Source: Bradyrhizobium cosmicum (GTDB lineage: Bacteria; Pseudomonadota; Alphaproteobacteria; Rhizobiales; Xanthobacteraceae). Taken from it: 64,000 nucleotides of DNA. The stretch spans positions 4,588,001 through 4,652,000 of the forward strand of contig NZ_CP041656.2 in the NCBI RefSeq assembly GCF_007290395.2, read 5' to 3'. The position numbers and the translations under genes are program-made. A model generated the notes under the pieces. That model was not told the DNA's origin and made no database searches. It saw only the letters and a list, made by a program, of their open reading frames with translations. Shown piece by piece: positions 33,870 to 48,966 of this stretch (its first letter is position 1; each line of letters opens with the position of its first letter).

Positions 33870-34273
33870 CAGGGCTCCTCAGGTTGCGATATGACGCGCG
33901 GAGCTGTGATGGGGACGATTGGGTCGGAGGGAACAGAGAAGGCCCGACGATCGGCCGATCCATCGCATTCGCGCGGGACAGGTCATCCGACATCGCGAGG
34001 TTCGCTGACATCGTCAGCGGCCTCGCCAGAGGGGCCCGGATTCGTGTTCGTTCCACACATAAAGATGGGTCCGCGGGAATCAAGGCGGCGGCACTGCGAC
34101 CAGCCGCCGCATCGGGTTCCATATTGTTGCGCCTGGTTGAGCCATGGTGGCGTGTCCGGTCGCAGCGCCGCTCGCAACGTCTAACAACGGCTAACGAGCC
34201 AGCAATCCGGTTTGGATGCAGATTGGCTCGGGCGCCTCGTTGTATCGGGGCGCGCACACAGGAGCGTGAACCG
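33870..34273. other. Divergent intergenic region, no gene seen
   Basis: About 400 bp between terB (minus) and the MOSC-reductase gene (plus). It is a little less GC-biased than its neighbours. It must hold both promoters. I found no conserved frame, clear hairpin terminator or known RNA. AGGAG at 34260-34264 is the ribosome binding site of the MOSC-reductase gene. Confidence 0.6.
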
Positions 34274-36034
34274 ATGGCCCGGCTGCTTTCAGTGAATGTC
34301 GGCCTGCCGCGCGACGTCGCGTGGCAAGGCAAGACCGTCCATACGGGCGTCTGGAAAACGCCCGTCGAAGGCCCGCGCAGGGTGCGCCGGCTCAACATCG
34401 ATGGTGACGGCCAAGGCGATACGGCAGGTCATGGCGGCGAGCAGCGCGCCGTCTACGTCTATCAGCGCGAGTCCTATCTGTTCTGGCAAAAGCATCTGGG
34501 GCGATCGAACCTGGTTCCTGGACAGTTCGGCGAGAATTTCACTGTCGATGGCCTCGCCGACACCGACGTCTGCATCGGAGACCGCTACAGGATCGGCTCT
34601 GCCCTTTTCGAGGTGACCCAGCCGCGCGTCACCTGCTACCGGCTCGGCATTCGCATGGAGGAGCCCGACATGGCCGCGCTGCTCGTCAGGCACGGCCGGC
34701 CCGGCTTCTATTTCCGCGTGATCGAGGAAGGCGACGTGGAAGCCGGTGACGAGATCACACGGGTCGCAGATGGCCCCGAGCGCATGAGCGTGTCCGAGAT
34801 CAACGCCCTGCTCTACCTGCCGCCCCACCCGCGCGAGCGACTCGCGCGCGCGCTGCGCATCCCGGCGCTGAGCCGCGGCTGGCGGCATTCGTTCGAGGCG
34901 CTGCTCGCGCAACAGCACGACGACAACACGGCCGCGGGAAATGCCGGTCTGGGCCCGACTGCAAGCCCACCTCCGGCCTGGCATGGATTCCGCCCGTTCC
35001 GCGTCTCGCGCAAGATTTCCGAAAGCGGCACTGTGACGTCGCTGATCCTCGATCCCACGGACCAACATCCCGTCGCCGCCGCCCTGCCCGGCCAGTTCAT
35101 CGTCGTACGGCTCGGACCGTCGGTGGCCCCCGCGATGACACGCAGCTATTCGCTGTCGAGCCGCTCCGATGCCGCGTCCTATCGCGTCAGCATCAAGCGG
35201 GAGGCACACGGGGCAGCCAGTCGATATATCGCGGACGAGCTCCGGATTGGCGACGTCGTCGAGGTCGGCGCGCCACGTGGGAGTTTCACGCTGCGCCAGG
35301 ACGCGCGGCCGATCGTCTTGCTGAGTGCCGGCATCGGCGCGACGCCGGTGCTCGCCATGCTCCAGGCGCTTGCCGCGGAAGGCGCGACACGAGAGGTCTG
35401 GTGGCTGCATGGCACCCGCAACGGCCACGAACACGCGTTCGCCGCGGAGGTGCGCAGGCTGCTGGCTGGGCTCGCTCACCATCGCAGCCACATCTGCTAC
35501 AGCGCGCCAGATCCCGCCGATCGCGCCGGGACGGATTTCGACACTGTCGGACGTCTGGATGCTCGCTTGCTCCAAAGCCTCGACGTGCCGCGCGACGCCG
35601 ACTTCTATATCTGCGGACCGGCTGCATTCATGACCGATCTTGCGGCGGGTCTCGGCGCTTTGGGCGTCGCGCCGGATCACATCTACACCGAGCTGTTCGG
35701 CACCAAGCCTTCACTGACGCCGGGCATTGCAGCTACGCCCAGGATTGCCGCGCATCTGCCGGCTGGAGCCCCCGGCCCGGGTCCGATGGTCAGTTTCGTC
35801 CGCAGCGGTCTCAATGTCTGCTGGGGGCCGGCCTATGCCAGCCTGCTCGAACTCGCCGAAGCGTGTGACGTGCCGGTGCGCTGGTCGTGCCGGACGGGCG
35901 TGTGCCACAATTGTGAGAGCGGGCTCGTGGCCGGCAAAGTCAGCTATGCGCCGGATCCCCTCGACCCGGCGGCGGACGGAAATGTCCTGATCTGTTGTGC
36001 GCGCCCCCAAGGCGACGTCGTCGTCGATCTGTGA
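34274..36034 (+). CDS. MOSC domain fused to ferredoxin-NADP reductase and 2Fe-2S ferredoxin
   Basis: 586-aa three-part protein. Residues 1-215 are a YiiM-like MOSC domain (AGHGGEQRAVYVY, VPGQFGENFTVDGL, PRVTCYRLG with the cofactor-binding Cys) with the 3-alpha extension (MSVSEINALLY). Residues about 245-480 are an FAD/NAD reductase (TRSYSLSS for FAD, LLSAGIGATPVLAML, FYICGPAAFM). Residues about 505-586 are a plant-type 2Fe-2S domain with CRTGVCHNC plus a later Cys (LICCA). Electrons would flow NAD(P)H to FAD to iron-sulfur to molybdenum cofactor, as in reduction of N-hydroxylated or toxic compounds. It starts at the ATG 9 nt after AGGAG. A redoxin gene follows 38 bp downstream. Confidence 0.92.
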   Translation: MARLLSVNVGLPRDVAWQGKTVHTGVWKTPVEGPRRVRRLNIDGDGQGDTAGHGGEQRAVYVYQRESYLFWQKHLGRSNLVPGQFGENFTVDGLADTDVCIGDRYRIGSALFEVTQPRVTCYRLGIRMEEPDMAALLVRHGRPGFYFRVIEEGDVEAGDEITRVADGPERMSVSEINALLYLPPHPRERLARALRIPALSRGWRHSFEALLAQQHDDNTAAGNAGLGPTASPPPAWHGFRPFRVSRKISESGTVTSLILDPTDQHPVAAALPGQFIVVRLGPSVAPAMTRSYSLSSRSDAASYRVSIKREAHGAASRYIADELRIGDVVEVGAPRGSFTLRQDARPIVLLSAGIGATPVLAMLQALAAEGATREVWWLHGTRNGHEHAFAAEVRRLLAGLAHHRSHICYSAPDPADRAGTDFDTVGRLDARLLQSLDVPRDADFYICGPAAFMTDLAAGLGALGVAPDHIYTELFGTKPSLTPGIAATPRIAAHLPAGAPGPGPMVSFVRSGLNVCWGPAYASLLELAEACDVPVRWSCRTGVCHNCESGLVAGKVSYAPDPLDPAADGNVLICCARPQGDVVVDL

Positions 36035-36072: not shown

Positions 36073-36669
36073 ATGCGTACGGATATGGTGCCGGGAGTGG
36101 CTTTCCCGGATTACGAGCTCAGCGACCATACCGGCAAACACCGCAAGCTCTCGGAGTTGCAAGGAGGCGACCCCATGGTGGTCGTTCTCGGCCGTGGCGG
36201 CTTTTGTCCAAAGGACCGACGGCAGGCCGAAGGACTGCTGCAGCTCCATCGCGAGATGGAAGTCGGCTATTGCCGGATGGTGACGATCACGACCGATAAT
36301 ATCACCCAGACGAACGAGTATCGCAGCGGCGTCGGGGCGCACTGGCCCTTCCTGTCCGATTCCCGGCGGATCATTCAGAAGGATCTCGACATCGCCGAAT
36401 ACACCGATCCCGTCCACAATCCGATGATCCCGCATGTCGTCGTGCTGGAGCCCCGCCTCGTCATTCACAAGGTCTACAACGGCTACTGGTTCTTCGGGCG
36501 TCCGACCGTCGAAGAGCTTCGCCAGGACCTGCGAGCGGTCACCATGAAATGCCGCCCGGACTGGGACATCACGGCCCCCGGTCTCAGGACGTTATGGGAC
36601 CAGGGCCGCAAGGAGCACTTTTATCCCTACGGCAAGGCTTACGTCGAAACTCTCGGCGAACGGGATTAG
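36073..36669 (+). CDS. Redoxin/peroxiredoxin-like protein with a single-cysteine motif
   Basis: 198 aa with a thioredoxin-fold AhpC/TSA-like layout: [20 protein letters not shown], a [16 protein letters not shown] segment where a peroxidatic Cys is expected, then [10 protein letters not shown] and an [15 protein letters not shown] segment like the FP-LSD of peroxiredoxins. The usual resolving CPxC partner is missing (CPKD), so it would be a one-Cys enzyme or not a peroxidase at all. The ATG at 36073 has GGAGG about 6 nt upstream. It probably shares a transcript with the MOSC-reductase fusion 38 bp before it. Its stop overlaps the nhaA stop by four bases. Confidence 0.8.
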
Positions 36670-37901
36670 CCCTCGGCCTCGTTGCGCCGGCGCTGGGCGT
36701 ATTCCGCGCCCCATCCGAGGCCGAGCGTCACGGAAATCAGCGAGCCGAGCAGCACGCCGAGCTTCGCGGCATCCAGCAGTTTGTCGTCGGTGAAGGCGAG
36801 CATCGCGATGAAGATCGACATGGTGAAGCCGATGCCGGCCAGGAGCCCGATCAGGCAAACGCCGCCCCATGACACGCCGGGAGCGAGGCGGCACCAGCCG
36901 GTGCGCACCGCAAGCCACGTTGCACCGATCACGCCGACGGGCTTGCCAGCACACAGGGCCAGGGCAACACCGAGCGTCACGAACTGTGCGCCGCCGGAGA
37001 GCTCCGTGCTCGCGAAGCCGACACCGGCATTCGCCAGCGCGAACAGCGGCATGACTCCGTAAGCGACCCAGGGATGCAGCGCGGCCTCGACACGCATGAC
37101 GGGCGGCACGACCTCCGGGCTGGCCGATCGCACCGGCGTGATCAGGCCAAGCACGACACCGGCCAGCGTCGGATGAACTCCGGCCATGAGGAAGCCCGCC
37201 CAGACGATGAACCCAGGCACCACATAGGTGGACGCCGAACCAAATCCGATCCACTGAAAGCCAAGCACGATCAGGACGCCGAGCGCTGCGACGGCGAAGC
37301 CGTTGAGATCGAGTCCGCTGGTGTAGAACGCCGCAATGATGAGAACCGCGATGATGTCGTCGATGATGGCGAGCGCCAGCAAAAAGACCCGGACATTGGA
37401 CGGGATCGATTTTCCGAGCAGCGCGAGCACGCCGACGGCGAAAGCGATGTCGGTTGCCGTCGGGATCGCCCAGCCTTGGCTGCGCCCGGGAGCGGCGTTT
37501 AAGCTCAGGTAGATCAGCGCGGGAACGACGACACCGCCGACAGCCGCGAGCACCGGCAGAATGGCCTGATCAAACCGGCTCAGTGCGCCCTCGTGGATTT
37601 CGCGACGGATTTCCATGCCGACGACCAGGAAGAAGATCGTCATCAAGGCGTCGTTGATCCAGAAATGCAGCGGCCTCACGAAGGCGAACCCGCCAAGGCG
37701 GAGCGGAATCTCCAGGTGCCAGAGATCATGATACGAATGGGCGAAGGGTGAGTTGGCCCAGAGCAGCGCGGCCGCTGCGGCCACGAGCAGCACGATGCCG
37801 CTGATGGCCTCGACATGCAGGAATTGCTGGAGTGTGGAAAGCGCCCGCTCAACGAAAAGAGGTGTTTTGGGCAGGTCCCCGCCGGGCAGCTGATCGTTCA
37901 T
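36666..37901 (-). CDS. nhaA: Na+/H+ antiporter NhaA
   Basis: 411-aa NhaA with twelve membrane segments. The ion-binding pair lies in [12 protein letters not shown] (two adjacent Asp, near 168), and [17 protein letters not shown] carries the conserved TD motif of the crossed helices. [13 protein letters not shown] near 75 and [15 protein letters not shown] near 365 are also typical. It exports sodium for protons at alkaline pH. Starts at 37901, 37913 or 37955 are possible; none has a strong ribosome binding site, and 37901 fits the family length. It converges with the redoxin gene, sharing four bases at the stops. Confidence 0.93.
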
Positions 37902-38042
37902 GGGCACGCGCATCCTGCGTGGCGGCCCGACCATCGCTTGACCTGTCGCTGCCACATGCAGCGAGCACCCGGACCCGTTCTACACGGCGCCGGGCGTAAG
38001 GCAACCCCGCTCCGCGCGCATACGCATCTAGCCCATGCGGCG

Positions 38043-38068
38043 GGAACTACGGCGCGGTAAGGATCGTT
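38043..38068 (+). promoter_or_regulatory. EcfG-type (general stress) promoter
   Basis: GGAAC at 38043-38047, a 17-nt spacer, then CGTT at 38065-38068. This matches the alphaproteobacterial EcfG consensus (GGAAC, N16-17, CGTT) exactly and lies 35 bp upstream of the amidotransferase start. Confidence 0.7.
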
Positions 38069-38102
38069 GGTGCACCTCACGACCCGTCTTGACAGGAACG
38101 CC

Positions 38103-38930
38103 ATGTGCCGCTGGATCGCATACCGGGGCGAGACGACCTCGTTCGAGCCTTACGTCACCGAGCCCGAGCATTCGCTGATTGCGCAAAGCATCCGCTCGCT
38201 GCAATCGACAGCGGGCTCGAATGGCGATGGCTTCGGTCTCGGCTGGTACGGCGAGCACCCGGAGCCTGGGCTTTATCGCGAGACGCGCCCCGCCTGGTCG
38301 GATGAAAACCTCCGCTACCTCTGCCGCCATCTCCGTTCGCACCTGTTCTTCGCCCATGTGCGCGCCGCCACCGGCACGGCGGTAACGCGGCAGAACTGTC
38401 ATCCCTTCGCCTGCGGCCAGTGGATGTTCATGCACAACGGCTTCATCGGCAGCTGGAATCGCCTGCGGCGGAAGGTCGAGGCGCTGATCCCCGACGCCTA
38501 CTATCCGTCGCGGCTGGGCTCGACGGACTCCGAAGCCGTGTTCCTCGCCATGATGGGTGCCGGTCTCGACAGCGATCCGGTCGGCGCGACGCACCGCGTG
38601 CTGCGATCGCTTGCCGGTCTCGTCAACGAAGGCGAACACCGCGAGCGGCTGCGCTTCACCAGCGCGGTCGCGAACGGTCGCGACCTCTACGCCTTCCGCG
38701 TTGCAGTCAACGATGCCGCGAACACGCTGTATTTTCGCGAATCCGGCGGCCAGGTCGTCGTCGTATCCGAGCCGTTCGACAAGGAAACGGACTGGACCGA
38801 AGTGCCGCCCAATCACGCCCTGATCGCGCGCGCGTCCGAAAGCGCGAAGATTGTTCCGTTCGACCTTGCAATTTCCAGTGAGCCCGGCGCGGAACCCGCC
38901 CCCGTCAGGAGGATTATCGCCCGCAGGTAA
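38103..38930 (+). CDS. Class II glutamine amidotransferase (YafJ/EgtC-like)
   Basis: 275 aa. The start at 38103 makes Cys2 the N-terminal nucleophile after Met removal (MCRWIAYRG), as the Ntn-hydrolase fold requires; AGGA lies 7 nt upstream. Other marks are NGDGFGLGWYG near 50, FAHVRAATGTAV near 80, NCHPFACGQWMFMHNGFIG near 95 and GSTDSEAVF near 135. It would cut gamma-glutamyl amides or glutamine. Nineteen bases later begins a YbdK-type gamma-glutamyl ligase gene, then a zinc-ribbon protein; the three probably form one operon behind an EcfG-type promoter. The substrate is unknown. YafJ and EgtC are the nearest known types. Confidence 0.9.
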   Translation: MCRWIAYRGETTSFEPYVTEPEHSLIAQSIRSLQSTAGSNGDGFGLGWYGEHPEPGLYRETRPAWSDENLRYLCRHLRSHLFFAHVRAATGTAVTRQNCHPFACGQWMFMHNGFIGSWNRLRRKVEALIPDAYYPSRLGSTDSEAVFLAMMGAGLDSDPVGATHRVLRSLAGLVNEGEHRERLRFTSAVANGRDLYAFRVAVNDAANTLYFRESGGQVVVVSEPFDKETDWTEVPPNHALIARASESAKIVPFDLAISSEPGAEPAPVRRIIARR

Positions 38931-38949
38931 TACCATCGCCGGGTGGACA

Positions 38950-40179
38950 ATGACATTTGCTTCGGACGTTTTGAAACTGCTGCGTCTCGATTCCTCCGAT
39001 GACAAGCAGCACCTCGTCATTCGCTCGGCCGGCGGCGGCGGCAAAGCCGCCGAATATTCGTTCGGCATCGAGGAGGAATATTTCCTCGCCGATCGCCGCA
39101 GCTTCGAGGTCGCGATCGAAACGCCCAACGCGCTGTTCGAATCGGCGAACTGGTCCACCGGCGGCCAGGCCATGCGCGAGATGCTGCAATCCCAGCTCGA
39201 GGTCGCCACCAACGTTCACGTCGACGTCAATGATGCCAGGGAAGAGCTCAGGTTCCTGCGCCGCGAGGTCGCCAACGTCGCCGCGCAATACGGCTTCGTC
39301 ATCATGGCCTGCGGCACCCATCCGACCGCGGTCTGGCGCATGTCGCAGCCGAGCCCGAAGCCGCGCTATGAGGAAATGATCGAGGATCTGCGCAGCATCG
39401 GCCACCGCAACATGATGTGCGGCATGCATGTGCACGTCCAGCTGCCGGATCCCGAGAAGCGGATGGCGGTGATGCGGGCGATGCTGCCGCTTCTGCCGCT
39501 GTTCATCGCGCTGGCTGCCTCCTCCCCGTTCTGGAATTCCCACAAGACGGGACTGAAGGGCTACCGGCTGGCGGCCTATAGCGAGCTGCCGCGCACCGGC
39601 ATGCCCGAACTGTTCGAGAACCGGCAGGACTACGACGCCTATATCGGCGCGTTGCAGCGCTCGGGCGTGATCCCCGACGAGAGCCACATCTGGTGGGCGA
39701 TGCGCCCGTCCATGAAGCATCCGACGCTCGAGCTTCGCGCGCCGGACACCTGCACCTTCGTCGACGACGCCGTCGCGATCGCCTCGCTCTATCGCTGCCT
39801 GACACGGCACCTCTATCTGCGGCCTCATCTGTCGAAGGAGGTCACCGTGGTCGAGCGCGCGATCGCGGTCGAGAACAAATGGCGCGCCCAGCGTTACGGC
39901 ACCGACTGCATCTTTGCTTCCAAGGATGGTCCGGTCACGATCTCCGAGCTGCTCACGCGCATCATCGACGACACCGCCGAGGACGCGGCCGCGCTGAACT
40001 GCGCCGCGGAGGTCGAGCACTGCCGGACCATCGTGGAACGCGGCAGCTCGGCCGAGTTCCAGCTTCGCGCCTATCGCGAAAACGGCGACGACATCGCATC
40101 GGTGTCACGATGGATTGCTACAGCTACGATGTCAGGGACCAGTGCTCCGATCGGACGCAGTGCTCAGGCGCCGACATAG
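38950..40179 (+). CDS. YbdK-type carboxylate-amine ligase (GCS2 family)
   Basis: 409-aa glutamate-cysteine ligase family 2 protein. The ATP-grasp-like core opens with SFGIEEEYFLAD near 38, followed by QLEVATNVHVDV near 80, CGMHVHVQLPD near 155 and PTLELRAPDTC near 255, which supply metal and glutamate contacts. Members join glutamate (or another carboxylate) to an amine with ATP. The last 15 or so residues (SGTSAPIGRSAQAPT) look like a non-conserved tail. It starts 19 bp after the amidotransferase and ends 62 bp before the zinc-ribbon gene. Whether the product is a glutathione-like thiol or another gamma-glutamyl compound cannot be read. Confidence 0.9.
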   Translation: MTFASDVLKLLRLDSSDDKQHLVIRSAGGGGKAAEYSFGIEEEYFLADRRSFEVAIETPNALFESANWSTGGQAMREMLQSQLEVATNVHVDVNDAREELRFLRREVANVAAQYGFVIMACGTHPTAVWRMSQPSPKPRYEEMIEDLRSIGHRNMMCGMHVHVQLPDPEKRMAVMRAMLPLLPLFIALAASSPFWNSHKTGLKGYRLAAYSELPRTGMPELFENRQDYDAYIGALQRSGVIPDESHIWWAMRPSMKHPTLELRAPDTCTFVDDAVAIASLYRCLTRHLYLRPHLSKEVTVVERAIAVENKWRAQRYGTDCIFASKDGPVTISELLTRIIDDTAEDAAALNCAAEVEHCRTIVERGSSAEFQLRAYRENGDDIASVSRWIATATMSGTSAPIGRSAQAPT

Positions 40180-40241
40180 CGTCCGCACAAGCTTCGACAC
40201 CGATAAGGGCGCTGCGGAGTTGCCGTGGCGTGGAGAAAAGC

Positions 40242-40445
40242 ATGACCGACATCACCTGTTGCGCTGGCTGTGGCCACAGCCTGGTCCCCATGCTGACCAG
40301 GAAGGGCTCGACGGAGTTCACCTGCCTCTGGTGCGAAAGCATCGACGCCCAGGCAATGGACATGGCGAAGTGGACGGACAGCCCAACGGGTAAGCCCCAA
40401 CGGTTCTCGGCTGCACATTCCCCATCACGCCTGCCGCCAAATTAG
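40242..40445 (+). CDS. 67-aa zinc-ribbon-like protein
   Basis: Small protein with two CxxC-type knuckles, CAGCGHSL near residue 7 and CLWCESID near 28, the spacing of a zinc ribbon. The C-terminal half is polar and unstructured. The ATG has GGAG about 7 nt upstream. It follows the YbdK-type ligase gene in the same direction and is probably in its operon. Function unknown. Confidence 0.7.
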   Translation: MTDITCCAGCGHSLVPMLTRKGSTEFTCLWCESIDAQAMDMAKWTDSPTGKPQRFSAAHSPSRLPPN

Positions 40446-40679
40446 ACAACCGACGGCACGTCCGGGGGATCGTACCGCCTGCAAAGCGGGTCAGTCGTCC
40501 GGCGAATCGGTCGACCTAACTAGCGGTGCAACCACCGGATTTTGCTTGCTCCGCCATGGCGCGCGAGCCGTCCCATCGCTGGAACCGAACTGGCCCAGAA
40601 TTCGCAACGCAGCGTTAGACCTTCAGTCTCCGCTGCCCGCCAGATCGCGCGCGGAGGACCGGCCAGATCGGAGAATGCC

Positions 40680-41819
40680 ATGAACGTGCATGCTGCCGCC
40701 GATATCAAATTCACCGGCCTCACCCGCCCGAGCGGCGCGCCGCTTCGCCTCAACGATCAGGATTTCGTGGCGATCGACCGCGACAAGAATGCCAAGTATG
40801 AGGCGACCTACAGGCCCCAGGCACTCTACAACCGCGCCAATGAAGGCTTTCACGCCAACAACGAAACCTTCCTGCTGCACGAGGTCGCGACCAACCTGCC
40901 GATCTACCGGCCCGACACCGGCCCCACCGATTTCCATCTGCATCTGCCGCCGGGCGGCTTTCAACTCGTGCTGGTCACCTCGGGCGCGTTCACCTTCGAC
41001 TACGACGGGCGCTTCTACAATGTCGGCCCCGGCGCCGTGATGCTGCAAAGCGCGATCGTGCACCGCCAGCTGTTCTACACCTGGTCGGGACTGTCGACGG
41101 AGGAGAACCTGAAGACGGCGCAGACCGTGGTGCCGGACCCGATCTCGATGGGCTATTCCGGCAAATTCCTCGAAGCCTTCATCACCGACCCCACCACCTT
41201 TCCGAATCCGACCATCGTCGGTCCGGACCAGATCAATGAGGCCGAGACGCCGCGCGTGGCCTGGAATCATCCGCTGCATGATCGCCCGGCCGATGCAGGC
41301 TTCTGGCTGCAGGACCCGCTGGCGCTGGATGCGCTGTTCAAGCCGCTCACCGACAACTCGGTCAAATCGGCCATGCCGGTTTATGTGCGCGATATCGGCA
41401 TCGAGATTCCGAGCGGCCATCTTGTCACCGGCCACATCATCGCGACCGACCCGCGCGGCCAGTCGCTGCTGCCGAAGAGCACGTCGATCGCTGCAGACAC
41501 TGGTTTCTTTACCAAGGGCGAGGTCGTCATCTATCGCGTCATTCGCGGCACGGCCGAGTTCAGGAAGAAGTCCGGCGAGAGCTTTGAACTCTCTGCCGGC
41601 GATGTCGTGACCGCGGGCAAGGAGTCGGTCAGCCTGATTGGCCTCGGCGAAAACACCCAGGTACTTCGGCTGGGCCTGCTCAAGGGGATGAACGAGCTGC
41701 GCAGCTGGACCCCGACGCAGCGTGACGAGATCGACGGCCTCGCCGGCCAGATCATTACACAGAGGGACGTTCGTCCCCTGCGCACCGAGGGCAAGCCGGT
41801 CGGCTATCTGTACGCCTAG
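40680..41819 (+). CDS. Bicupin-like protein, function unknown
   Basis: 379 aa with two beta-barrel halves: HLHLPPGGFQLVLVTSGAFT near 82 and a second jelly-roll at about 265-335 (FFTKGEVVIYRVIRGTAEF, then GESFELSAGDVV). The first half keeps two histidines of a cupin motif; the second lacks most metal ligands. It may bind a small molecule or act as a dioxygenase-like enzyme. The ATG has GGAG 7 nt upstream. A GGAAC at 40581 lies about 100 bp upstream, but the -10 part (CGCA, 17-nt spacer) is a poor EcfG match. A strong hairpin follows the stop. Confidence 0.7.
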   Translation: MNVHAAADIKFTGLTRPSGAPLRLNDQDFVAIDRDKNAKYEATYRPQALYNRANEGFHANNETFLLHEVATNLPIYRPDTGPTDFHLHLPPGGFQLVLVTSGAFTFDYDGRFYNVGPGAVMLQSAIVHRQLFYTWSGLSTEENLKTAQTVVPDPISMGYSGKFLEAFITDPTTFPNPTIVGPDQINEAETPRVAWNHPLHDRPADAGFWLQDPLALDALFKPLTDNSVKSAMPVYVRDIGIEIPSGHLVTGHIIATDPRGQSLLPKSTSIAADTGFFTKGEVVIYRVIRGTAEFRKKSGESFELSAGDVVTAGKESVSLIGLGENTQVLRLGLLKGMNELRSWTPTQRDEIDGLAGQIITQRDVRPLRTEGKPVGYLYA

Positions 41820-41829
41820 CCCAAAAAGA

Positions 41830-41851
41830 ACGGCCCGCCGAAGCGGGCCGT
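41830..41851 (+). terminator. Hairpin terminator between convergent genes
   Basis: ACGGCCCGC, loop CGAA, then GCGGGCCGT: a 9-bp perfect stem directly after the bicupin stop and just before the stop of the converging gene. On the minus strand the stem is followed by TCTTTTTGG, so it is a good intrinsic terminator for the 41863-42483 gene; on the plus strand the T-run is poor. Confidence 0.75.
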
Positions 41852-41862
41852 CGAACTCTCGT

Positions 41863-42483
41863 TTAGCGGAGCGATCCGCCGTAAAGCTGCCGCTCCTTGC
41901 GAACCTCGTCGGCACCGTAAGGCTTGCTGGCGGGATCGAACGACTTCCACCCGGCCTTCTGCCAGGCGGCGCTGCGGTCCCGCAAATCGACCGACGACTC
42001 GTTCAGGATCGCGTCGAGACGCGCGCGATCGGTATCCGCAACCCGCGCGGACACCAGCGTGCCTCCGCGACGAACGCCCTCGGCGTACGAGTCAGCATCC
42101 TCCTTGGAAATGCCGGCTTCAGTCAGCGCCCCAACGACGCCGCCGGTTGCAGCGCCTGCAGCCGCGCCGACGGCAGTCGCAGCGAGCCAACCGGCTGCGA
42201 CGACAGGACCGAGGCCGGGGATCGCGAGAAGGCCGAGTCCGGCCAATAGGCCGGCGGTGCCGCCTACGCCCGCACCGATGCCGGCACCCGTGCCCGCACC
42301 TTCGGCGCGATCGTCGACACCGTCGCGATCACGATCCACCTTCTTGTCGGTGTTGAACCAGCTGTCCGAATTGTTGGCGACGATGCTGATGTCCGCATGC
42401 GGCACGCCGGCAGCTTCGAGCCGCTGAACCGCCTGCTGCGCGTTGGTGTAGTTGTCGTAAAGACGAGAGATTGTAACGGTCAT
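41863..42483 (-). CDS. General-stress-type protein with glycine-rich hydrophobic centre
   Basis: 206 aa. The N-terminal 50 residues (MTVTISRLYDNYTNAQQAVQ, then LEAAGVPHADISIVAN) match the YflT/general stress protein 17M-like domain that begins many bacterial stress proteins. An acidic DRDRDGVDD follows, then a glycine/alanine-rich stretch (residues 70-140) of membrane-like or zymocin-like character, then VSARVADTDRARLDAIL. The ATG at 42483 has AAGGA about 8 nt upstream. It lies 13 bp after an exported small protein gene and is likely co-transcribed with it. Exact function unknown. Confidence 0.75.
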   Translation of the reverse strand: MTVTISRLYDNYTNAQQAVQRLEAAGVPHADISIVANNSDSWFNTDKKVDRDRDGVDDRAEGAGTGAGIGAGVGGTAGLLAGLGLLAIPGLGPVVAAGWLAATAVGAAAGAATGGVVGALTEAGISKEDADSYAEGVRRGGTLVSARVADTDRARLDAILNESSVDLRDRSAAWQKAGWKSFDPASKPYGADEVRKERQLYGGSLR

Positions 42484-42496
42484 TTTGATTCCTTGC

Positions 42497-42832
42497 TTAC
42501 TTGGCCGAATTGACGTTGCCCTGGAAGTCGACGCTGACCGCAGTGGCTGATCCGCCCTTGCTGGCCTGGCCGCGCCAGACACCCTTGTCGTCCTTCTTCA
42601 GTGCGGTGACGTTGGCGTAGCCGGCGTCCTCGATCTTGGATTTGGCCTGACCTTCAGTGAAACTGTTGCGACCCGCGACAGGCGCGTCGGAGTTGTTCTG
42701 ACCTGCACTGTTGACCGCATTGTTGTTCGGCCCGGACTGCGCTGGCTGATTCTGCGCTGAAGTGGGGGCAGCTACGAAAGCCGTGGCCGCAGCGAATAAA
42801 GATAGGCAAACGAAAAGTGTTGGGCGCTTCAT
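42497..42832 (-). CDS. Exported 111-aa protein (PepSY-like)
   Basis: A clear signal peptide (MKRPTLFVCLSLFAAATAFV onward, cut near TSAQN) is followed by an Asn/Ser-rich linker. A compact domain then reads FTEGQAKSKIEDAGYANVTA and GVWRGQASKGGSATAVSVDF, which resembles PepSY-type domains that inhibit or bind in the periplasm. A GGAAC lies 50 bp upstream on the minus strand (42882-42886), hinting at stress control, but the -10 element is weak (GCTT). Probably the first gene of a two-gene operon with the 206-aa protein. Confidence 0.75.
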   Translation of the reverse strand: MKRPTLFVCLSLFAAATAFVAAPTSAQNQPAQSGPNNNAVNSAGQNNSDAPVAGRNSFTEGQAKSKIEDAGYANVTALKKDDKGVWRGQASKGGSATAVSVDFQGNVNSAK

Positions 42833-42917
42833 GATTGTCTCCAGTGACTAAGGAATGAGCCAAGCCCTCAACGGAGCTTTCGTTCCTAAGTCGCGCGCGG
42901 AGACATCGCCCGCGCAT

Positions 42918-43070
42918 TTAAGTTTTAAAGAAAATCATCCACGTAACGGCCAGGATGAGAACCGCGAGTGCAACGCTCACACCAAGCAGCATCAGGACGC
43001 TGGGCCCCAGCTCGCCTTGACGTGCTTCGACAGCGGTCTCGACGACGTGTCCGCTTTTGTCTTTGTCCAT
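42918..43070 (-). CDS. 50-aa single-pass membrane protein
   Basis: A short frame reading MDKDKSGHVVETAVEARQGE, followed by one membrane helix (SVLMLLGVSVALAVLILAVT) and WMIFFKT. Start ATG at 43070, with only a weak GAGAG upstream. The charged N-terminus and strongly hydrophobic C-terminus form a sensible tail-anchored protein, and codon use suits a coding region. It lies among small stress-type genes. Function unknown. Confidence 0.65.
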   Translation of the reverse strand: MDKDKSGHVVETAVEARQGELGPSVLMLLGVSVALAVLILAVTWMIFFKT

Positions 43071-43116
43071 GGCATTGCTCTCATAGTCCGAGGATCAGCT
43101 TGACCGTACGCTTGCT

Positions 43117-43350
43117 CTAATAGCGCGGGCGCCGTTGAGCGAACGCCGCACGAGGGTTGATGCCGCATCCTGCATTGCGGCCGGAAGCCGACGCCATGCA
43201 TTGCGCCCGCGTTTGATAATTGCAGTCGCCCGGATAGCCCGTCTGCCGCCCCTGAAGACACCAGCGATATTCCTGAGCATCGGCGGGTACTGCGCCTGCG
43301 ACGGTGATCGTCCCGGCGGTCAACGCCAACATGATGAGAATCTTACGCAT
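43117..43350 (-). CDS. DUF3551 family small exported protein
   Basis: 77 aa: signal peptide (MRKILIMLALTAGTITVAGA onward, cut near ADAQEYRW) and a mature part with the DUF3551 pattern RWCLQGRQTGYPGDCNYQTR, then CMASASGRNAGCGINPR, i.e. four conserved cysteines. AGGAG lies 6 nt before the ATG at 43350. DUF3551 proteins are abundant in Bradyrhizobium and of unknown function. A GGAAC at 43408-43412 on the minus strand is about 60 bp upstream, with only a partial -10 (GATT). Confidence 0.85.
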   Translation of the reverse strand: MRKILIMLALTAGTITVAGAVPADAQEYRWCLQGRQTGYPGDCNYQTRAQCMASASGRNAGCGINPRAAFAQRRPRY

Positions 43351-43707
43351 GTTCGGCTCCTGCTTGTCCAATTCGCGTTAACGTCCAAATCGGATCCGCG
43401 GAGGTTCGTTCCTATACGCTTGGGAGCGGTCCAGCGGACGGACCTCGTCGGCAGGCGCAAACCTTTAAAGAGAAGAGCTCGGAACCCGGCGTGCTGGAGG
43501 TCAGGCAGGCGTTGATAGGCTGCCATCCTGTTGCGGTGCGCTTACTTCAGGAGGCCTCTCATTCCGCACCAGGCTCCAGGCGCGAGGCCCATTCAAGCAG
43601 TCGATGCACTTTGTTGCGAGAAGTTTGGCAAGTGAACCCGCCTGGCGCACGCGGTTGCGCTTCTCCGTCGTGGCGAAACCTCCCGACATACCGCGATATC
43701 GACGACG
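43351..43707. other. Intergenic region, no gene supported
   Basis: About 350 bp. Frames of 62-68 codons exist on the minus strand (for example 43501-43689), but they have no ribosome binding site and no recognisable motif. The region may hold the DUF3551 promoter near 43390-43412. Nothing else was seen. Confidence 0.5.
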
Positions 43708-44154
43708 TCAATCCAACGCGTTCGGCGACTGATGTTGCAAGGCTGGCGTTGCGCCGTCGAGCCAATCCTGCGTCTCAGCAAGAGAGAGCCACGCATCACC
43801 CATGCGCCTCAACTGCTTGCGCGTTGCGTCGTCGGCGGTGGCGTGTTCCAGCGAGAGGCAGTGGCCGGCGTTGTTCCGAAGGTGGTCCGACCGGCTCAAT
43901 TGGCTGTCGGTGCTGTTCGCTGGCTCGGCGGATGTCTGCCAGGAGTTCTTGCAGACAGGGCACCGCCACTGATTGATCAATGTCCCGGTCGGTAAATAGG
44001 TCGCGTGCGCCGGAGCCGCCACGAGTTTCCCGCAAGCGGTGCAGCCTTCCGGCCGCTGTGACGGGGAATGCAGGCTCTCGGCCTGCACGGCTCTCGCAAT
44101 CCAGCGGCGTTCGAACTTGCGGCAAAGATGGAGAGGATAGGAGATGACGTTCAA
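43708..44154 (-). CDS. Zinc-ribbon protein with TTG start, function unknown
   Basis: 148 aa from a TTG at 44154 with a strong GGAGG about 5 nt upstream; no ATG fits. A zinc ribbon is plain: CTACGKLVAAPAHATYLPTG to WRCPVCKNSW (two CxxC pairs about 25 residues apart, residues 38-70). The C-terminal part is helical (HCLSLEHATADDATRKQLRR, then MGDAWLSLAETQDWLDG). Small proteins of this layout are common in Bradyrhizobium and uncharacterised. It lies divergent from the zinc alcohol dehydrogenase. Confidence 0.7.
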   Translation of the reverse strand: MNVISYPLHLCRKFERRWIARAVQAESLHSPSQRPEGCTACGKLVAAPAHATYLPTGTLINQWRCPVCKNSWQTSAEPANSTDSQLSRSDHLRNNAGHCLSLEHATADDATRKQLRRMGDAWLSLAETQDWLDGATPALQHQSPNALD

Positions 44155-44338
44155 AGCGCGCCTCCAGTCTGTGGCGGGAGCGCGGCAGCGTCTCTCTGTC
44201 ACCGGCGCCTGTCAGTCTCTGCCAGCGATACTCTTGATATGGTACGCCAAATGGCCTCCGCCAGTGCGAAGTCGAGAAGCCCTTTCTGACAGCCGTATTG
44301 ACCCGGCCTGACCTGAGCGTCGCGCTCATTCGATTTAG

Positions 44339-44363
44339 GAACCTCTCTCCATTCCTCCTGTTG
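44339..44363 (+). promoter_or_regulatory. EcfG-type promoter, upstream of alcohol dehydrogenase
   Basis: GGAAC at 44339-44343, a 16-nt spacer, then TGTT at 44360-44363, differing from the EcfG -10 consensus (CGTT) by one base. It lies about 59 bp before the dehydrogenase start. Confidence 0.55.
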
Positions 44364-44421
44364 CCTCAGCACGACATGACCTGTGAATGCGCATGCCGTC
44401 CCCAAAAATGGAGATATGACC

Positions 44422-45597
44422 ATGCGTGCACTCTGTTGGCACGGCAAAGGCGACGTTCGGGTCGACACGGTTCCGGATCCCAAAATCCAGCATCCGCGCG
44501 ACGCGATCATCAAAATCACCGCCTGCGCCATCTGCGGCTCAGATCTGCATCTCTTCGACGGCTACCAGCCGACCATGGAGAGCGGCGATATCCTCGGACA
44601 TGAAAACATGGGCGAGGTGATCGAGTTGGGATCTGAGGTCACCAATCTGAAGATCGGCGATCGTGTCGTTGTTCCCTTCACGATCAGCTGCGGCAATTGC
44701 TGGTTCTGCCAGCAGGGATTGTTCTCCTGCTGCGACCGCACCAACCCGAATGCGGAGATCGCGGCCAAGGCCATGGGTCAATCGCCCGCCGGGCTTTTTG
44801 GCTTCAGTCATATGCTGGGTGGGTATTCGGGCGGGCAGGCGGAATATTTGCGTGTGCCAATGGCCGACGTCGGCCCGATCAAGATTCCCGACAGCATTAC
44901 GGACGAGCAGGCGCTGTTTCTGTCCGACATCTTCCCGACCGGCTACATGGCTGCCGTCAACGCGCAGATCGAGCCGGGAGATACGGTCGCGATCTGGGGA
45001 TGCGGCCCCGTCGGCCAGTTCGCAATTCGCTCCGCCCTGATGCTGGGAGCCGGACGCGTCATCGCGATCGACGAAGTGGCCGAGCGCCTCGACATGGCGG
45101 AAGCCGGCGGCGCCGAGACGATCGATTTCTCGAAGTCCGACGTCCATGAAGAACTGATGCGGCGAACCAACAAGCGCGGTCCGGACAGCTGCATTGATGC
45201 GGTCGGTTGCGAAGCTTCGGGTCATGGCTCGGCGGACGCGGTGATCGACAAGGTCAAGGCCGCGACCTTCCTGGCAACGGATCGTGTTCACGTTCTCCGC
45301 CAGGCGATCATGGCCTGCCGCAAGGCGGGCACCATCTCGATTCCAGGCGTCTATGTCGGGATGGGCGACAAGATCCCGCTGGGTGCCGCCATGAACAAGG
45401 GACTGACCATCAAGACCGGTCAGACCCACGTCCAGGCTTATACCAAGCCATTGCTCGCCAAGATCGTTGCGGGCGAAATCGATCCCAGCTTCGTGGTGAC
45501 GCATCCGGCCAGTCTCGAAGACGCGCCCGAGATGTACCAGAAGTTCCGCGACAAAGAAGCCGGCGTCATCAAGGTCGTGATGCGACCGGGGCGTTAG
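44422..45597 (+). CDS. Zinc-dependent alcohol dehydrogenase (formaldehyde dehydrogenase-like)
   Basis: 391-aa medium-chain dehydrogenase. The catalytic zinc site is [14 protein letters not shown] with GHENMGEV; the structural zinc site is [16 protein letters not shown]. The NAD-binding region is [20 protein letters not shown] near 190. The insert ([20 protein letters not shown]) is typical of the FDH_like group related to glutathione-independent formaldehyde dehydrogenase. The start at 44422 is preferred because GGAG is 8 nt away; the ATG at 44416 is too close to it. It is preceded by an EcfG-type promoter, and a membrane-anchored hydrolase gene follows 53 bp later. Confidence 0.9.
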
Positions 45598-45650
45598 CCC
45601 GGCGCCGCCACCCGCTCTCCAACAGCTGGCTCCAGCCAGCGAAAGTGCAC

Positions 45651-46658
45651 ATGCGCATCCTGAAAAAACGCTCGCCGTCGTTGGCGACCATGACTCTTCG
45701 TACTCTCGGGAACTATCCCATCGTATCCGCCCTCGCCGCCACGGCCGGCTTGATGGCCGCCGCTGCCGTCGTCAATCGGCGCCTTGCGGACAAGGCGCAA
45801 CGCGATAACCCGCCTCAAGGACGGTTCATCGACATCGACGGCGTGCGCCTGCACTATGTCGAGCGGGGATCCGGTCGTCCTCTTGTGCTGCTCCACGGCA
45901 ATGGCAGCATGATCCAGGATTTCGAGTCCAGCGGTCTGATCGATCTCGCAGCCAAGGAATATCGCGTTATCGTATTCGACCGCCCCGGCTTCGGCCACAG
46001 CCTGAGGCCTCGCAACGTGGTGTGGACGCCTGCGGCGCAAGCCGACCTGTTCAAGGAGGCGCTTGCGCATCTGGGCGTCGAAAAGGCAATCGTGCTCGGA
46101 CATTCCTGGGGAGCATCGGTCGCGGTCGCACTCGCAAGCAGACACCCGTCATTCGTCGAAGCTTTGATACTTGCATCCGGCTACTATTTCCCGACAGCCC
46201 GCACCGACGCGATGATGGCGATGGCCGGGCCGGCGATCCCGGGGTTCGGCGACATACTCAGTCACACGATTTCGCCAATCCTCAGCCGCCTGATGTGGCC
46301 GGCGATGCTGCGGCAGCTGTTCGGGCCGAAGTCGGTCCCGCAGAAATTCGACGGCTTCCCCAAATCGCTGGCGGTTCGCCCATCGCAGCTTCGTGCCGGA
46401 GCGGCCGAGGCCGCGTTGATGGTGCCTTCGGCAATGCTGTCTGCGAAGACCTATGGCGAGCTTGCCATGCCCGTCACCATCCTCGCCGGCGAGGACGATC
46501 GCCTCATCGACATCGACGAGCAATCCGGTCGGCTGCATGACGAAATCAAGCACAGCAAGATGCGCCGTGTCCCGAATGCGGGTCACATGATCCAGCAGTC
46601 GGATACGGCCGACCTCATGGCTGCGGTCGACGAGGCCGCGGCGGAAACGCTGCATTGA
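45651..46658 (+). CDS. Alpha/beta hydrolase with N-terminal membrane anchor
   Basis: 335 aa. A hydrophobic stretch near residues 24-42 (IVSALAATAGLMAAAAVV) precedes a standard hydrolase domain: VLLHGNGSMIQDF (oxyanion), FDRPGFGHS, the nucleophile elbow GHSWGAS near 147, acid in ILAGEDDRLID and His in VPNAGHMIQQS. The anchor suggests the enzyme sits on the membrane facing the periplasm. The substrate is unknown; it resembles epoxide hydrolase/haloperoxidase-like enzymes. It starts 53 bp after the zinc alcohol dehydrogenase. An ATG at 45690 is a possible alternative start. Confidence 0.85.
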   Translation: MRILKKRSPSLATMTLRTLGNYPIVSALAATAGLMAAAAVVNRRLADKAQRDNPPQGRFIDIDGVRLHYVERGSGRPLVLLHGNGSMIQDFESSGLIDLAAKEYRVIVFDRPGFGHSLRPRNVVWTPAAQADLFKEALAHLGVEKAIVLGHSWGASVAVALASRHPSFVEALILASGYYFPTARTDAMMAMAGPAIPGFGDILSHTISPILSRLMWPAMLRQLFGPKSVPQKFDGFPKSLAVRPSQLRAGAAEAALMVPSAMLSAKTYGELAMPVTILAGEDDRLIDIDEQSGRLHDEIKHSKMRRVPNAGHMIQQSDTADLMAAVDEAAAETLH

Positions 46659-46704
46659 GATCCTGATCATCCCGAGGGGATATGATCGTGCACGATCCGA
46701 ATTA

Positions 46705-46729
46705 GGAACGTCCGATACAGCTCTCGGTT
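46705..46729 (+). promoter_or_regulatory. EcfG-type promoter, upstream of catalase fusion
   Basis: GGAAC at 46705-46709, 16-nt spacer, GGTT at 46726-46729 (one change from CGTT). The catalase start is about 33 bp downstream, a sensible leader length. Confidence 0.6.
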
Positions 46730-46761
46730 GGCCCGGCATCTCCAGCAAACAAAGGTCTATC

Positions 46762-48057
46762 ATGTATCATCACGTCAAGAAGCTCATGTTCACTGTTCGG
46801 GTCGACGAGCCGGATCCGCGGTTCGGCAATATGCTCCTGGAGCAATTCGGTGGGGCCAACGGTGAGCTGGCGGCCGCCATGCAGTATTCCATCCAAGGTC
46901 TGAATTGCGAAGATCCGGATCGCAAGGATCTCCTGATGGACATCGGAACCGAGGAACTGAGCCATCTCGAAGTGGTCGGGTCGCTCGCGCGGCTGCACTT
47001 GAAGCCCATGAAGTTCGATCGCGAAGCGGCGGAAGCCGATCCGTTGATCGCGATCGCCGGGGGCGGCGGCGTCAATCTGTTCAACTCGCAGGGCAGTGCC
47101 TGGACGGCGGACTACCTGAAGATCACCGGTGAACTCGACGTCGATCTCCGCAGCAACATTGCCGCGGAAGCGCGTGCCAAGATCGTGTATGAGCGCTTGA
47201 TCAATTTCTGTGATGATGCAGGCACCAAGGACGCGCTGCAGTTCCTGATGACGCGTGAGATCACCCATATGAAGGCGTTTTCGCGCGCGTTGGAAAGCAT
47301 GAACAAGCCCACGTTTAGCATCGGTCGTATCGCTCCAACGCCGGGACTGGTGGACCAGTTCTTCAACGATTCGACCGGATCGGGAGACAACGGCGAAATC
47401 GACACGAGAGGCCCATGGAACGAGGGCGACGACTGGATTTTCACGGAGTCACCTGCGCTCCAGAGCAGTGATCCCGGCGTAGCAGCCTCCATCGTTGCCG
47501 AGAGCTCGCCGTCAGAACCTCTTGTTGGCCTAGACGACTTGCTCATCGACCAACTGCGGGACCTCCTGCATGCGGAGAAGCAACTGACAAAGGCCTTGCC
47601 TCAGATGATCGAAGCCGCACGCTACGATCAGCTCTGCGAGCTCTTCACCGTTCACCTGGCCGAAACCGAAGCCCAGATCGAGCGTCTCGATGAGTGCTTC
47701 GAACTACTCGGCAAGAAGCCGCGCGCCAAGGCCTGCAAGGGTATGCTGGGGCTTGTCGAAGAAGGCGAAGAAGTGATCAAAGAGGGTGCCAGGAAGGATA
47801 ATGCCGCCGCGGATCTCGCCTTGATCGGTGCGGCTCAGCGTGTCGAGCATTACGAAATTTCCGGCTACACGACTGCCCGCAACCTGGCCCAGCAGCTGCG
47901 TCACAGTGCCGTCGTCGCGCTCCTTTCGAAGAATTTGGCGGAGGAGGAGAACGCGGACCAGTTGCTCAATCAGGTCGCGCGATCGCTGATGTCGGTTGCG
48001 AAGATGCCGGCCCCGATCGAACAGAGCTTTGTCCAGGATGAGCCGGCCGGAGGTTAG
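46762..48057 (+). CDS. Manganese catalase fused to a DUF892 (YciE/YciF-type) domain
   Basis: 431-aa two-domain protein. Residues 1-about 205 are a dimanganese catalase: Glu35 (NGELAAAMQY), Glu65 and His68 (TEELSHLEV), Glu136 (AEARAKIVYE) and Glu166/His169 (TREITHMKAF) supply the metal site, and PWNEGDDWIF (near 218-227) is the family's C-terminal segment. After a short linker, residues 255-420 are a ferritin-like DUF892 domain (LLIDQLRDLLHAEKQLTKAL, then EAQIERLDECFELLG and EHYEISGYTTARNLAQQL). The two parts normally come from separate stress genes. An EcfG-type promoter precedes it. It should destroy hydrogen peroxide; the DUF892 role is unknown. Confidence 0.93.
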   Translation: MYHHVKKLMFTVRVDEPDPRFGNMLLEQFGGANGELAAAMQYSIQGLNCEDPDRKDLLMDIGTEELSHLEVVGSLARLHLKPMKFDREAAEADPLIAIAGGGGVNLFNSQGSAWTADYLKITGELDVDLRSNIAAEARAKIVYERLINFCDDAGTKDALQFLMTREITHMKAFSRALESMNKPTFSIGRIAPTPGLVDQFFNDSTGSGDNGEIDTRGPWNEGDDWIFTESPALQSSDPGVAASIVAESSPSEPLVGLDDLLIDQLRDLLHAEKQLTKALPQMIEAARYDQLCELFTVHLAETEAQIERLDECFELLGKKPRAKACKGMLGLVEEGEEVIKEGARKDNAAADLALIGAAQRVEHYEISGYTTARNLAQQLRHSAVVALLSKNLAEEENADQLLNQVARSLMSVAKMPAPIEQSFVQDEPAGG

Positions 48058-48083
48058 TCAACGACCGAGCGTCAACTGAACAA

Positions 48084-48106
48084 GGCGGCCCCCAATGGGG
48101 GCCGCC
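48084..48106 (+). terminator. Strong GC hairpin after the catalase fusion
   Basis: A perfect 10-bp stem GGCGGCCCCC with loop AAT and its complement, just after the catalase stop and before the mini-DnaJ-like gene. There is no T-run after it, so it may be an attenuator or processing hairpin rather than a full terminator. Confidence 0.6.
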
Positions 48107-48129
48107 TCGCCATAGCGGAAGGATTCAGC

Positions 48130-48276
48130 ATGTCCCCAAAGATCAAGGAACGCACCTGCCAGTTGTGCGAAGGAACCGGCTTTCCGAAGCCCGAGCCGGC
48201 TCGGCCAGGTCGCAAAATCTATCCGGTCAAATGCAAGTCGTGCCTGGGCAAGGGCAAGGTCCCAGAGATCGCGTGA
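48130..48276 (+). CDS. 48-aa protein with two DnaJ-type CxxCxGxG zinc motifs
   Basis: A short frame: MSPKIKERTCQLCEGTGF, then PKPEPARPGRKIYPVK and CKSCLGKGKVPEIA. It has exactly two CxxCxGxG repeats, CQLCEGTG and CKSCLGKG, as in one zinc-binding half of the DnaJ cysteine-rich domain. AAGGA lies 7 nt before the ATG. It follows the catalase fusion in the same direction across a strong hairpin and converges with the DUF6894 gene, leaving 7 bp between stops. It may be a redox- or misfolding-linked zinc protein; the role is inference. Confidence 0.8.
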   Translation: MSPKIKERTCQLCEGTGFPKPEPARPGRKIYPVKCKSCLGKGKVPEIA

Positions 48277-48283
48277 AGCGATC

Positions 48284-48532
48284 TTAGTGCCTTGATCTCT
48301 CGACCTCGAACGTGAACTTGACCTGCATCACGGGACCGTCGGCATCCCTCACTTCAATCGCGAGGTCGCGTCTGTCGACGGCGGCCATGGAATCATGGAC
48401 AGCATCGCGCGCCATATCGGCTAGTGATCTCGCCGCTTCCGCTTGCGCGGCCGGCAAATTCGGAAGCTCGACTCCTTCTTCGTCGACAGCAAGAATGTCG
48501 CCGTCCAGCAGATCAAAGTAGTATCGCGGCAT
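48284..48532 (-). CDS. DUF6894 family protein
   Basis: 82 aa: MPRYYFDLLDGDILAVDEEG, then VELPNLPAAQAEAARSLADM and AIEVRDADGPVMQVKFTFEV. This YFD-D-G plus A-x3-A pattern is the DUF6894 signature, a family numerous in Bradyrhizobium and of unknown function. The ATG at 48532 is the family start; upstream frame is not conserved. A GGAAC at 48575-48579 on the minus strand is 40 bp upstream, but the -10 match is weak. Confidence 0.82.
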   Translation of the reverse strand: MPRYYFDLLDGDILAVDEEGVELPNLPAAQAEAARSLADMARDAVHDSMAAVDRRDLAIEVRDADGPVMQVKFTFEVERSRH

Positions 48533-48640
48533 CGCTTCGCACTCCGTCAAGTCCAAGTGACGGTTCGAGCGCACGTTCCAAAAAAATAGCGGGGTAGCGG
48601 CGGGCTGCCGCGCAGCGTCGGAACGGAGTTGCGTTCTGCA

Positions 48641-48665
48641 GGAACGCAGCACGCCAACCCACGTT
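48641..48665 (+). promoter_or_regulatory. EcfG-type promoter, upstream of the 87-aa protein
   Basis: GGAAC at 48641-48645, 16-nt spacer, CGTT at 48662-48665, an exact consensus match. It lies 29 bp before the TTG start of the 87-aa gene. Another GGAAC occurs at 48620-48624. Confidence 0.7.
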
Positions 48666-48694
48666 GGTCCGGGAATTCAGACCCCGGAGCATAC

Positions 48695-48958
48695 TTGTCC
48701 ATTTTGCAACTCAACCCGCCCATTCCCGTCGTGACGCCCAAGGGCGACGGCTACGCCCACGTCCTCATCGACTATGGAGCGGAATTCAATCTGCTCTGGG
48801 TCGTCTTTCTCGACGATTCCGGGGAATGCTGGACCTACGACAATTCGCAAATCCGCGCCCAGAAGAACGTCACGATGGGACGAACCTTCGTCTCGATGCA
48901 CAAGGCATCTTTGGCCCCCGGTGCCGAATCTGCCGCCCGCACAGAGACCGTCCGCTGA
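48695..48958 (+). CDS. 87-aa protein with TTG start, function unknown
   Basis: Reads LSILQLNPPIPVVTPKGDGY, then AHVLIDYGAEFNLLWVVFLD and DDSGECWTYDNSQIRAQKNV. The start is a TTG at 48695 with GGAG 6 nt upstream; the open frame before it is unlike the family. Similar short proteins occur widely in Bradyrhizobium. An exact EcfG-type promoter lies just upstream, pointing to stress induction. It converges with gor, leaving 8 bp between stops. Confidence 0.75.
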   Translation: MSILQLNPPIPVVTPKGDGYAHVLIDYGAEFNLLWVVFLDDSGECWTYDNSQIRAQKNVTMGRTFVSMHKASLAPGAESAARTETVR

Positions 48959-48966
48959 GCGCAACC

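Follow-up and report, generated by a model that had tools for sequence, protein, structure and literature searches.

Predicted EcfG-type promoters on and beside an accessory gene islet of Bradyrhizobium cosmicum

Introduction

Do repeated GGAAC boxes in a short stretch of bacterial chromosome mark genes of the general stress response, and if so, how did these genes come together? The question is raised by the DNA of Bradyrhizobium cosmicum between positions 38043 and 48958 of the window, that is, of the whole stretch of 64,000 nucleotides analysed (bases 4588001–4652000 of one 7.27-Mb contig, a Bradyrhizobium chromosome). The original prediction, read from the window itself, described this 11-kb block as an island controlled by PhyR and EcfG and marked by eight boxes. 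The comparisons below make it very probable that the locus holds a general-stress gene set of seven transcription units, each with its own EcfG-type promoter (GGAAC-N16/17-NGTT or NNTT). Seven of the eight boxes behave like EcfG promoters in these comparisons, and the one at 40581 is rejected. The term island is apt for positions 41820–48966, an accessory islet between the cupin gene and gor. Six of the seven accepted promoters sit on it; the seventh precedes an amidotransferase–ligase pair (gatII-gcs2) in the left flank, and at least seven separate promoters make the block something other than one unit. The gene names used are those of table 1.

The boxes and their conservation

Both exact GGAAC-N16/17-CGTT matches that had been reported, at 38043 (N17) and 48641 (N16), are present on the plus strand. 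The two sites said to differ by one change also exist on this strand (N16-TGTT and N16-GGTT), the second at 46705 and the first starting at 44338 rather than 44339. With the distance taken between the last base of the -10 part and a plausible start codon, these four sites lie 29–59 bp upstream, as had been stated. The weaker boxes proposed at 40581 and near 42884, 43410 and 48577 are likewise real as sequences; the three on the minus strand are placed at 42886, 43412 and 48579. Among the seven accepted sites, the -10 part is an exact CGTT in two, another NGTT in two and NNTT in three. The box at 40581 (plus) was discarded as an EcfG promoter: it has no usable -10 part, has a matrix score of -17.2 and is not seen in aligned relatives.

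Conservation was followed in 46 syntenic loci (given L numbers here), of which 40 were chosen by cupin and seven by manganese (Mn) catalase, with one genome in both sets. A cupin match was present in 49 other genomes, 40 of which make up the cupin set, and L205, having the same values as L035, is left out of the counts. The related loci recovered are almost exclusively from Bradyrhizobium. Upstream sequences were dropped at less than 60% identity, where the alignment started after residue 6, or where fewer than 100 bases lay upstream. Identical upstreams were counted once, and GGAAC-N16/17-NNTT was sought within 130 bases 5' of each gene. The pattern is present in all upstreams of seven genes: gatII (24/24), sp42 (9/9), mncat (8/8), adh (3/3, upstreams with the adh start), sm48b (3/3), duf3551 (2/2) and duf6894 (2/2). 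It is absent from the core neighbours cupin (0/46), gor (0/46), rpiA (0/45) and duf2059 (0/33), and from redoxin (0/12), nhaA (0/11), sm48 (0/10) and gsp17M (0/9). Partial presence is seen for smallCys (3/38), tm43 (1/6) and abh (3/11). Under the stricter NGTT form, gatII (24/24), mncat (8/8), adh (3/3) and sm48b (3/3) retain the full count, abh keeps 2/11 and all others fall to 0. Around gatII the spacer of the promoter varies among aligned relatives, and both boxes remain. An apparent 29/29 before gcs2 was set aside: the site falls in the coding end of the amidotransferase gene, where a permuted 5-mer reaches 26/29. Conservation is strong for gatII, mncat and sp42 and thin, at two or three upstreams, for the other four. 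As far as sequence comparison goes, it is evidence independent of the motif-based choice of the block.

The promoter of sp42 can be followed beyond the islet. Homologues of this small protein, which has no named family, are found in 30 of the 149 family genomes searched (own genome counted) and in 13 of the 41 genera searched. In the 29 homologous loci taken from the family, one per genome, a gsp17M relative lies near sp42 in 23, and GGAAC-N16/17-NNTT precedes the gene in 21; permuted 5-mers average 0.5 and never exceed 6. Seventeen of the 21 sites stand 51–60 bases 5' of the chosen ATG. Eight homologues are without the promoter (L226, L229, L230, L231, L232, L244, L247 and L250). In four of these, all of this genus (L226 and L230–L232), GCAAC-N16-TGTT can be read by eye; in Sphingopyxis granuli only two -35 parts are most frequent, GCAAC being one of them, according to excerpts of PMC7083833 (the other papers cited below are likewise drawn on in excerpt). 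An EcfG-type promoter is recognizable before sp42 in many genera.

Chance and its controls

The simplest rival is that the boxes are accidental, GGAAC being frequent in a 64% GC genome and the 11-kb stretch having been singled out for holding several. A matrix allows this to be weighed. The best 80 of 282 Mn-catalase relatives were kept, giving 79 distinct loci; seven of these (L032–L038) share the window neighbourhood and were excluded from training. Among the 72 relatives at other loci, 69 carry GGAAC-N16/17-NNTT in the 110 bases 5' of the start; three were dropped. After removal of two duplicates, the training set comprised 67 distinct promoters (58 N16, nine N17), in which the -10 TT is imposed by the selection of sites. 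Across all 79 loci, at least three letters of CGTT are found in 69 and all four in 40, with fewer than three in eight and no such box in two (L106 and L108).

When the 102 GGAAC in the window are ranked by this matrix, the top seven are seven of the eight boxes originally listed. A scan of this kind had been proposed as a check on block enrichment. At scores of at least 8, the background of 5.6 sites per 100 kb predicts 0.6 in 11 kb, and seven are found; the densest 11 kb in each of forty 20-kb background stretches holds at most three, a number reached in 4/40. Called genes with such a site 32–200 bases upstream number 9/750 in the background, never more than one per stretch. In the window they number 5/61, all five in the 38–49 kb block (5/9 called there). 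Fisher's test of 5/9 versus 9/750 gives 1.2e-7, an optimistic value, since the block was selected for its motifs. The gene caller overlooks the smallest genes, so that DUF3551 and DUF6894 stand outside the 5/9 count.

As a separate observation, the 67 training promoters (non-syntenic loci among L039–L110) have an extended -35 part, with T in 59/67 and A in 63/67 immediately before GGAAC, and A at spacer base 2 in 61/67. This extension is not general in the sp42 promoters of other genera.

Several results weigh against a set of seven EcfG promoters. GGAACN15-18CGTT occurs three times in the window versus 1.62 expected, and at least three times in 21/100 shuffles; the third match, at 40037 on the minus strand with 15-nt spacing, lies within a gene. 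Genome-wide, the exact motif occurs 139 times versus 136 for the reversed pattern, and two further, longer patterns reach 19 versus 34 and 34 versus 38. The matrix favours promoters of the catalase type: those of phyR and nepR score below 6. One of the eight boxes noted fails, three of the seven -10 parts (GCTT, GATT and ACTT) do not fit NGTT, and for two of these NNTT sites (DUF3551 and DUF6894) conservation depends on two upstreams each.

Exact-motif counting, which does not exceed its controls, is accordingly discarded as proof of EcfG promoters. Among the genome-wide results with longer patterns, one is informative, the clustering of the pattern with 19 matches: four lie within 3.9 kb of the islet, which 0/200,000 random placements equal, although this pattern was picked after the promoters were known. 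The counts favour chance; it is contradicted by the conservation in orthologous upstreams beside clean negatives in core neighbours, and by retention of the motif both before Mn-catalase relatives located elsewhere and before sp42 homologues from other genera. Chance is highly improbable. Comparison reveals what exact-motif counting misses.

Which sigma factor, and which sites?

The regulators that the gene set would need are encoded in the same genome. Profile searches place NepR (PF18557), PhyR and EcfG at about 6.641–6.643 Mb, with NF006623 and NF009192 over cut-off among the regulator proteins. A single protein passes the EcfG family cut-off; the next sigma-factor match has 89 bits. The intergenic region between the divergent phyR and nepR carries GGAAC-N16-GGTT towards nepR and GGAAC-N16-AGTT towards phyR. 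Exact matching is too strict for this genome, because neither promoter has the exact CGTT. Stress-dependent promoters on both units, in the same arrangement, have been described (PMC8103513).

The promoters could be real and yet be read by another extracytoplasmic function (ECF) sigma factor. An AAC-type -35 part is common to several ECF groups, and the genome holds ten additional, weaker sigma-factor matches. Set against this, the published EcfG motif is GGAAC-N16-NGTT (PMC3892343, PMC7083833, PMC6599016), the same motif lies between phyR and nepR, and the genes present are similar in kind to those that EcfG controls in Sphingomonas melonis (PMC6599016). Recognition by a different sigma factor is thus improbable.

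A narrower alternative concerns the -10 parts. The four NGTT promoters (38043, 44338, 46705 and 48641) might alone work, the GCTT, GATT and ACTT sites being decayed or very weak. A change from CGTT to CATT or TGTT reduces transcription in vitro (PMC7083833), and the L032 sequence aligned with the DUF3551 promoter reads GTAAC. Unlike a decaying site, GCTT before sp42 is kept in 9/9 syntenic upstreams, and CATT, ACTT and GCTT forms all occur before sp42 homologues elsewhere. This restriction to four sites is judged unlikely.

If the seven sites are EcfG promoters, the mechanism would follow a pathway established in the literature. Stress would lead to phosphorylation of PhyR; phosphorylated PhyR would release EcfG from NepR; and RNA polymerase carrying this EcfG would initiate independently at each GGAAC promoter. 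The proteins made would be a Mn-catalase/DUF892 protein, a YflT protein with its small partner, adh and abh, the amidotransferase–ligase pair and several small proteins. Dependence on EcfG, the positions of transcription starts and protective roles of the products are what we infer here from sequence.

An accessory islet between cupin and gor

The cupin gene and gor-duf2059-rpiA are present in 46/46 syntenic loci, and what lies between them varies. The gap from the stop codon of cupin to that of the convergent gor measures 4–514 bp in 25/46 relatives and 1.3–7.4 kb in 21/46. Islet genes or their relics, one or more, occur in 13 of the 46; eight carry other content and 25 are empty. Among the cupin-chosen genomes, 7/40 have islet genes (L185, L193, L202, L205, L209, L212 and L219). 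On the core-gene tree, the islet label requires 10 changes versus a shuffled mean of 12.1, with 48/500 shuffles as low, and well-supported branches force three changes. By these comparisons the islet is patchily distributed, and insertion and loss are not distinguishable from the core-gene tree. The islet shows the variable presence at a fixed site that a mobile island would have. No tRNA lies in the window, and no integrase or transposase family was found among the islet proteins scanned (all but sm48 and tm43). The segment is named an accessory islet rather than a mobile element.

Promoter-like sites concentrate inside the gap. Where the gap exceeds 1 kb (21 loci), sites scoring at least 8 reach 5.6 per 10 kb inside (43 in 77 kb), a density that includes Mn-catalase promoters, kin of the training set, and 0.5 per 10 kb outside (18 in 350 kb). 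Around Mn-catalase genes elsewhere, with the catalase's own promoter omitted, sites scoring at least 14 have a density of 16.6 per 100 kb at distances up to 2 kb and of 6.6–8.0 farther away; the sample from this genome gives 1.6 per 100 kb.

The idea that the cupin–gor site is reserved for stress genes was rejected: 8/46 relatives hold more than 1 kb of other content there, six of the eight without any score-8 site. The gap is, on the alignments at hand, a general insertion or deletion hotspot. The other inserts, of 1.3–2.6 kb (L184, L186, L189, L192, L196, L218, L220 and L222), contain no islet gene that was sought.

Promoters kept, cargo changed

Comparison of individual islets suggests how they may evolve. 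Both adh and abh stand behind the 44338 promoter in this genome and in L034, which aligns throughout. In seven genomes adh is mostly lost and the promoter is left before abh, by at least four different deletions with junctions (window coordinates) at 44540/45535 in L035, 44398/45472 in L032, 44399/45548 in L033 and about 44466/45611 in L036/L037/L038/L193. L185 retains adh and has no abh; in L202 and L212 no adh can be aligned, and a site stands a short way 5' of abh. At 43412, a matching site before tm43 is kept in L033 and L193, neither of which gives a DUF3551 hit. L209 was considered as a case of adh without a promoter and dismissed, as it holds residues 320–393 of adh only.

A tentative reading, given somewhat less than an even chance, is that the islet is a promoter-anchored dock for cargo, in which the EcfG promoters persist and close relatives lose or exchange the genes that follow. 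The pattern suggests that selection holds the promoters; the adh deletions could be neutral. If the reading is true, stress regulons would swap gene content with their wiring unchanged, and a regulon may grow or shrink through gene gain or loss beside ready-made promoters.

Genes of the islet and its flanks

The gene assignments made originally (catalase, alcohol dehydrogenase and the amidotransferase–ligase pair behind boxes) agree with the domains found (table 1). The cupin gene, abh taken alone, sm48 and gor have no EcfG-type promoter directly upstream. In the left flank, gcs2 is probably in one operon with gatII, across a 19-bp gap. Assignment of gatII as the ergothioneine protein EgtC was not adopted: TIGR03442 gives 187.7 bits versus a cut-off of 218.65, and the protein is EgtC-like only. 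The rejected box at 40581 adjoins a different element, CTGGCCC-N5-TCGCA, present in 40/46 distinct cupin upstreams, which resembles a sigma54 promoter in its GG-N10-GC spacing. Farther left, two structured RNAs and one multi-domain gene were noted in passing.

Table 1. Positions of the features in the window.
Feature	Position	Strand	Details
EcfG-type promoter of gatII-gcs2	38043..38068	plus	GGAAC-N17-CGTT; matrix score 8.1
gatII, class II glutamine amidotransferase	38103..38930	plus	PF13230
gcs2, GCS2-type carboxylate-amine ligase	38950..40179	plus	PF04107; NF010039 over cut-off
sigma54-like element of cupin gene (not EcfG)	40590..40606	plus	CTGGCCC-N5-TCGCA
cupin gene	40680-41819		core gene right of gatII-gcs2; left edge of islet
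accessory islet	41820..48966		stop codon of cupin to stop codon of gor; 7148 bp
gsp17M, YflT-domain stress protein	41863..42483	minus	PF11181; operon with sp42
sp42, small protein, signal-like N-terminus	42497..42832	minus	no Pfam or NCBIfam match
EcfG-type promoter of sp42-gsp17M	42862..42886	minus	GGAAC-N16-GCTT; NGTT 0/9 syntenic upstreams
tm43, 50 residues, one hydrophobic stretch	42918..43070	minus	downstream of DUF3551; from translation and relatives
DUF3551 small protein, signal-like N-terminus	43117..43350	minus	PF12071
EcfG-type promoter of DUF3551 gene	43388..43412	minus	GGAAC-N16-GATT; score 20.7
EcfG-type promoter of adh-abh	44338..44362	plus	GGAAC-N16-TGTT
adh, Zn-dependent alcohol dehydrogenase	44416..45597	plus	PF08240, PF00107; start 44416 or 44422; no NCBIfam equivalog over cut-off
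abh, alpha/beta hydrolase	45651..46658	plus	PF00561
EcfG-type promoter of Mn-catalase (mncat)	46705..46729	plus	GGAAC-N16-GGTT
mncat, Mn-catalase domain fused to DUF892 domain	46762..48057	plus	PF05067, PF05974
sm48, small protein with cysteine pairs	48130..48276	plus	downstream of catalase
DUF6894 small protein	48284..48532	minus	PF21834
EcfG-type promoter of DUF6894 gene	48555..48579	minus	GGAAC-N16-ACTT; score 10.8
EcfG-type promoter of sm48b	48641..48665	plus	GGAAC-N16-CGTT; score 13.1
sm48b, small protein, start codon uncertain	48695..48958	plus	no Pfam match for 48629-48958, no NCBIfam match
terC RNA	33978-34047	minus	RF03067, 51.2 bits
gene for a single chain combining MOSC, YiiM 3-alpha, FAD/NAD-binding and 2Fe-2S domains	34274-36034	plus	scanned as 33884-36034
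nhaA-I riboswitch	37918-37970	minus	RF03057, 46.6 bits; before Na+/H+ antiporter gene 36666-37901

Comparison with known systems

The literature searched yielded no description of such an accessory arrangement of EcfG targets. The separate parts have close parallels. In S. melonis Fr1, the EcfG-dependent genes encode, among others, catalases, a Zn-alcohol dehydrogenase, a small secreted protein and a TIGR03440 protein of EgtB type; as here, the motifs lie no farther than about 100 bp from where the gene starts. The motif there is GGAAC-N17-20-GTT, and EcfG dependence, predicted here, was measured there (PMC6599016). The B. cosmicum genome offers a counterpart to the last of these genes: an EgtB-type gene (2709970–2711124, minus; TIGR03440 over cut-off) has an exact GGAAC-N16-CGTT at 2711230–2711254 (minus), roughly 100–130 bases 5' of it. 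S. granuli and Rhizobium etli carry GGAAC-N16-CGTT before several separate units, as seen here (PMC7083833, PMC3892343), and S. granuli also has GCAAC and variant -10 parts (PMC7083833). Both species differ in having two EcfG proteins, compared with one over cut-off here (PMC7083833, PMC3892343).

The nearest system is that of Bradyrhizobium diazoefficiens, of the same genus and with the same PhyR-NepR-EcfG triad, in which EcfG is said to redirect more than 100 genes; the general stress response is required for soybean symbiosis in Bradyrhizobium (PMC8092242). The locus thus offers seven predicted EcfG promoters to probe together in a genus that uses this response for symbiosis. That it represents a known kind of system, a set of EcfG targets in an accessory arrangement, is well supported, and its evolution looks modular.

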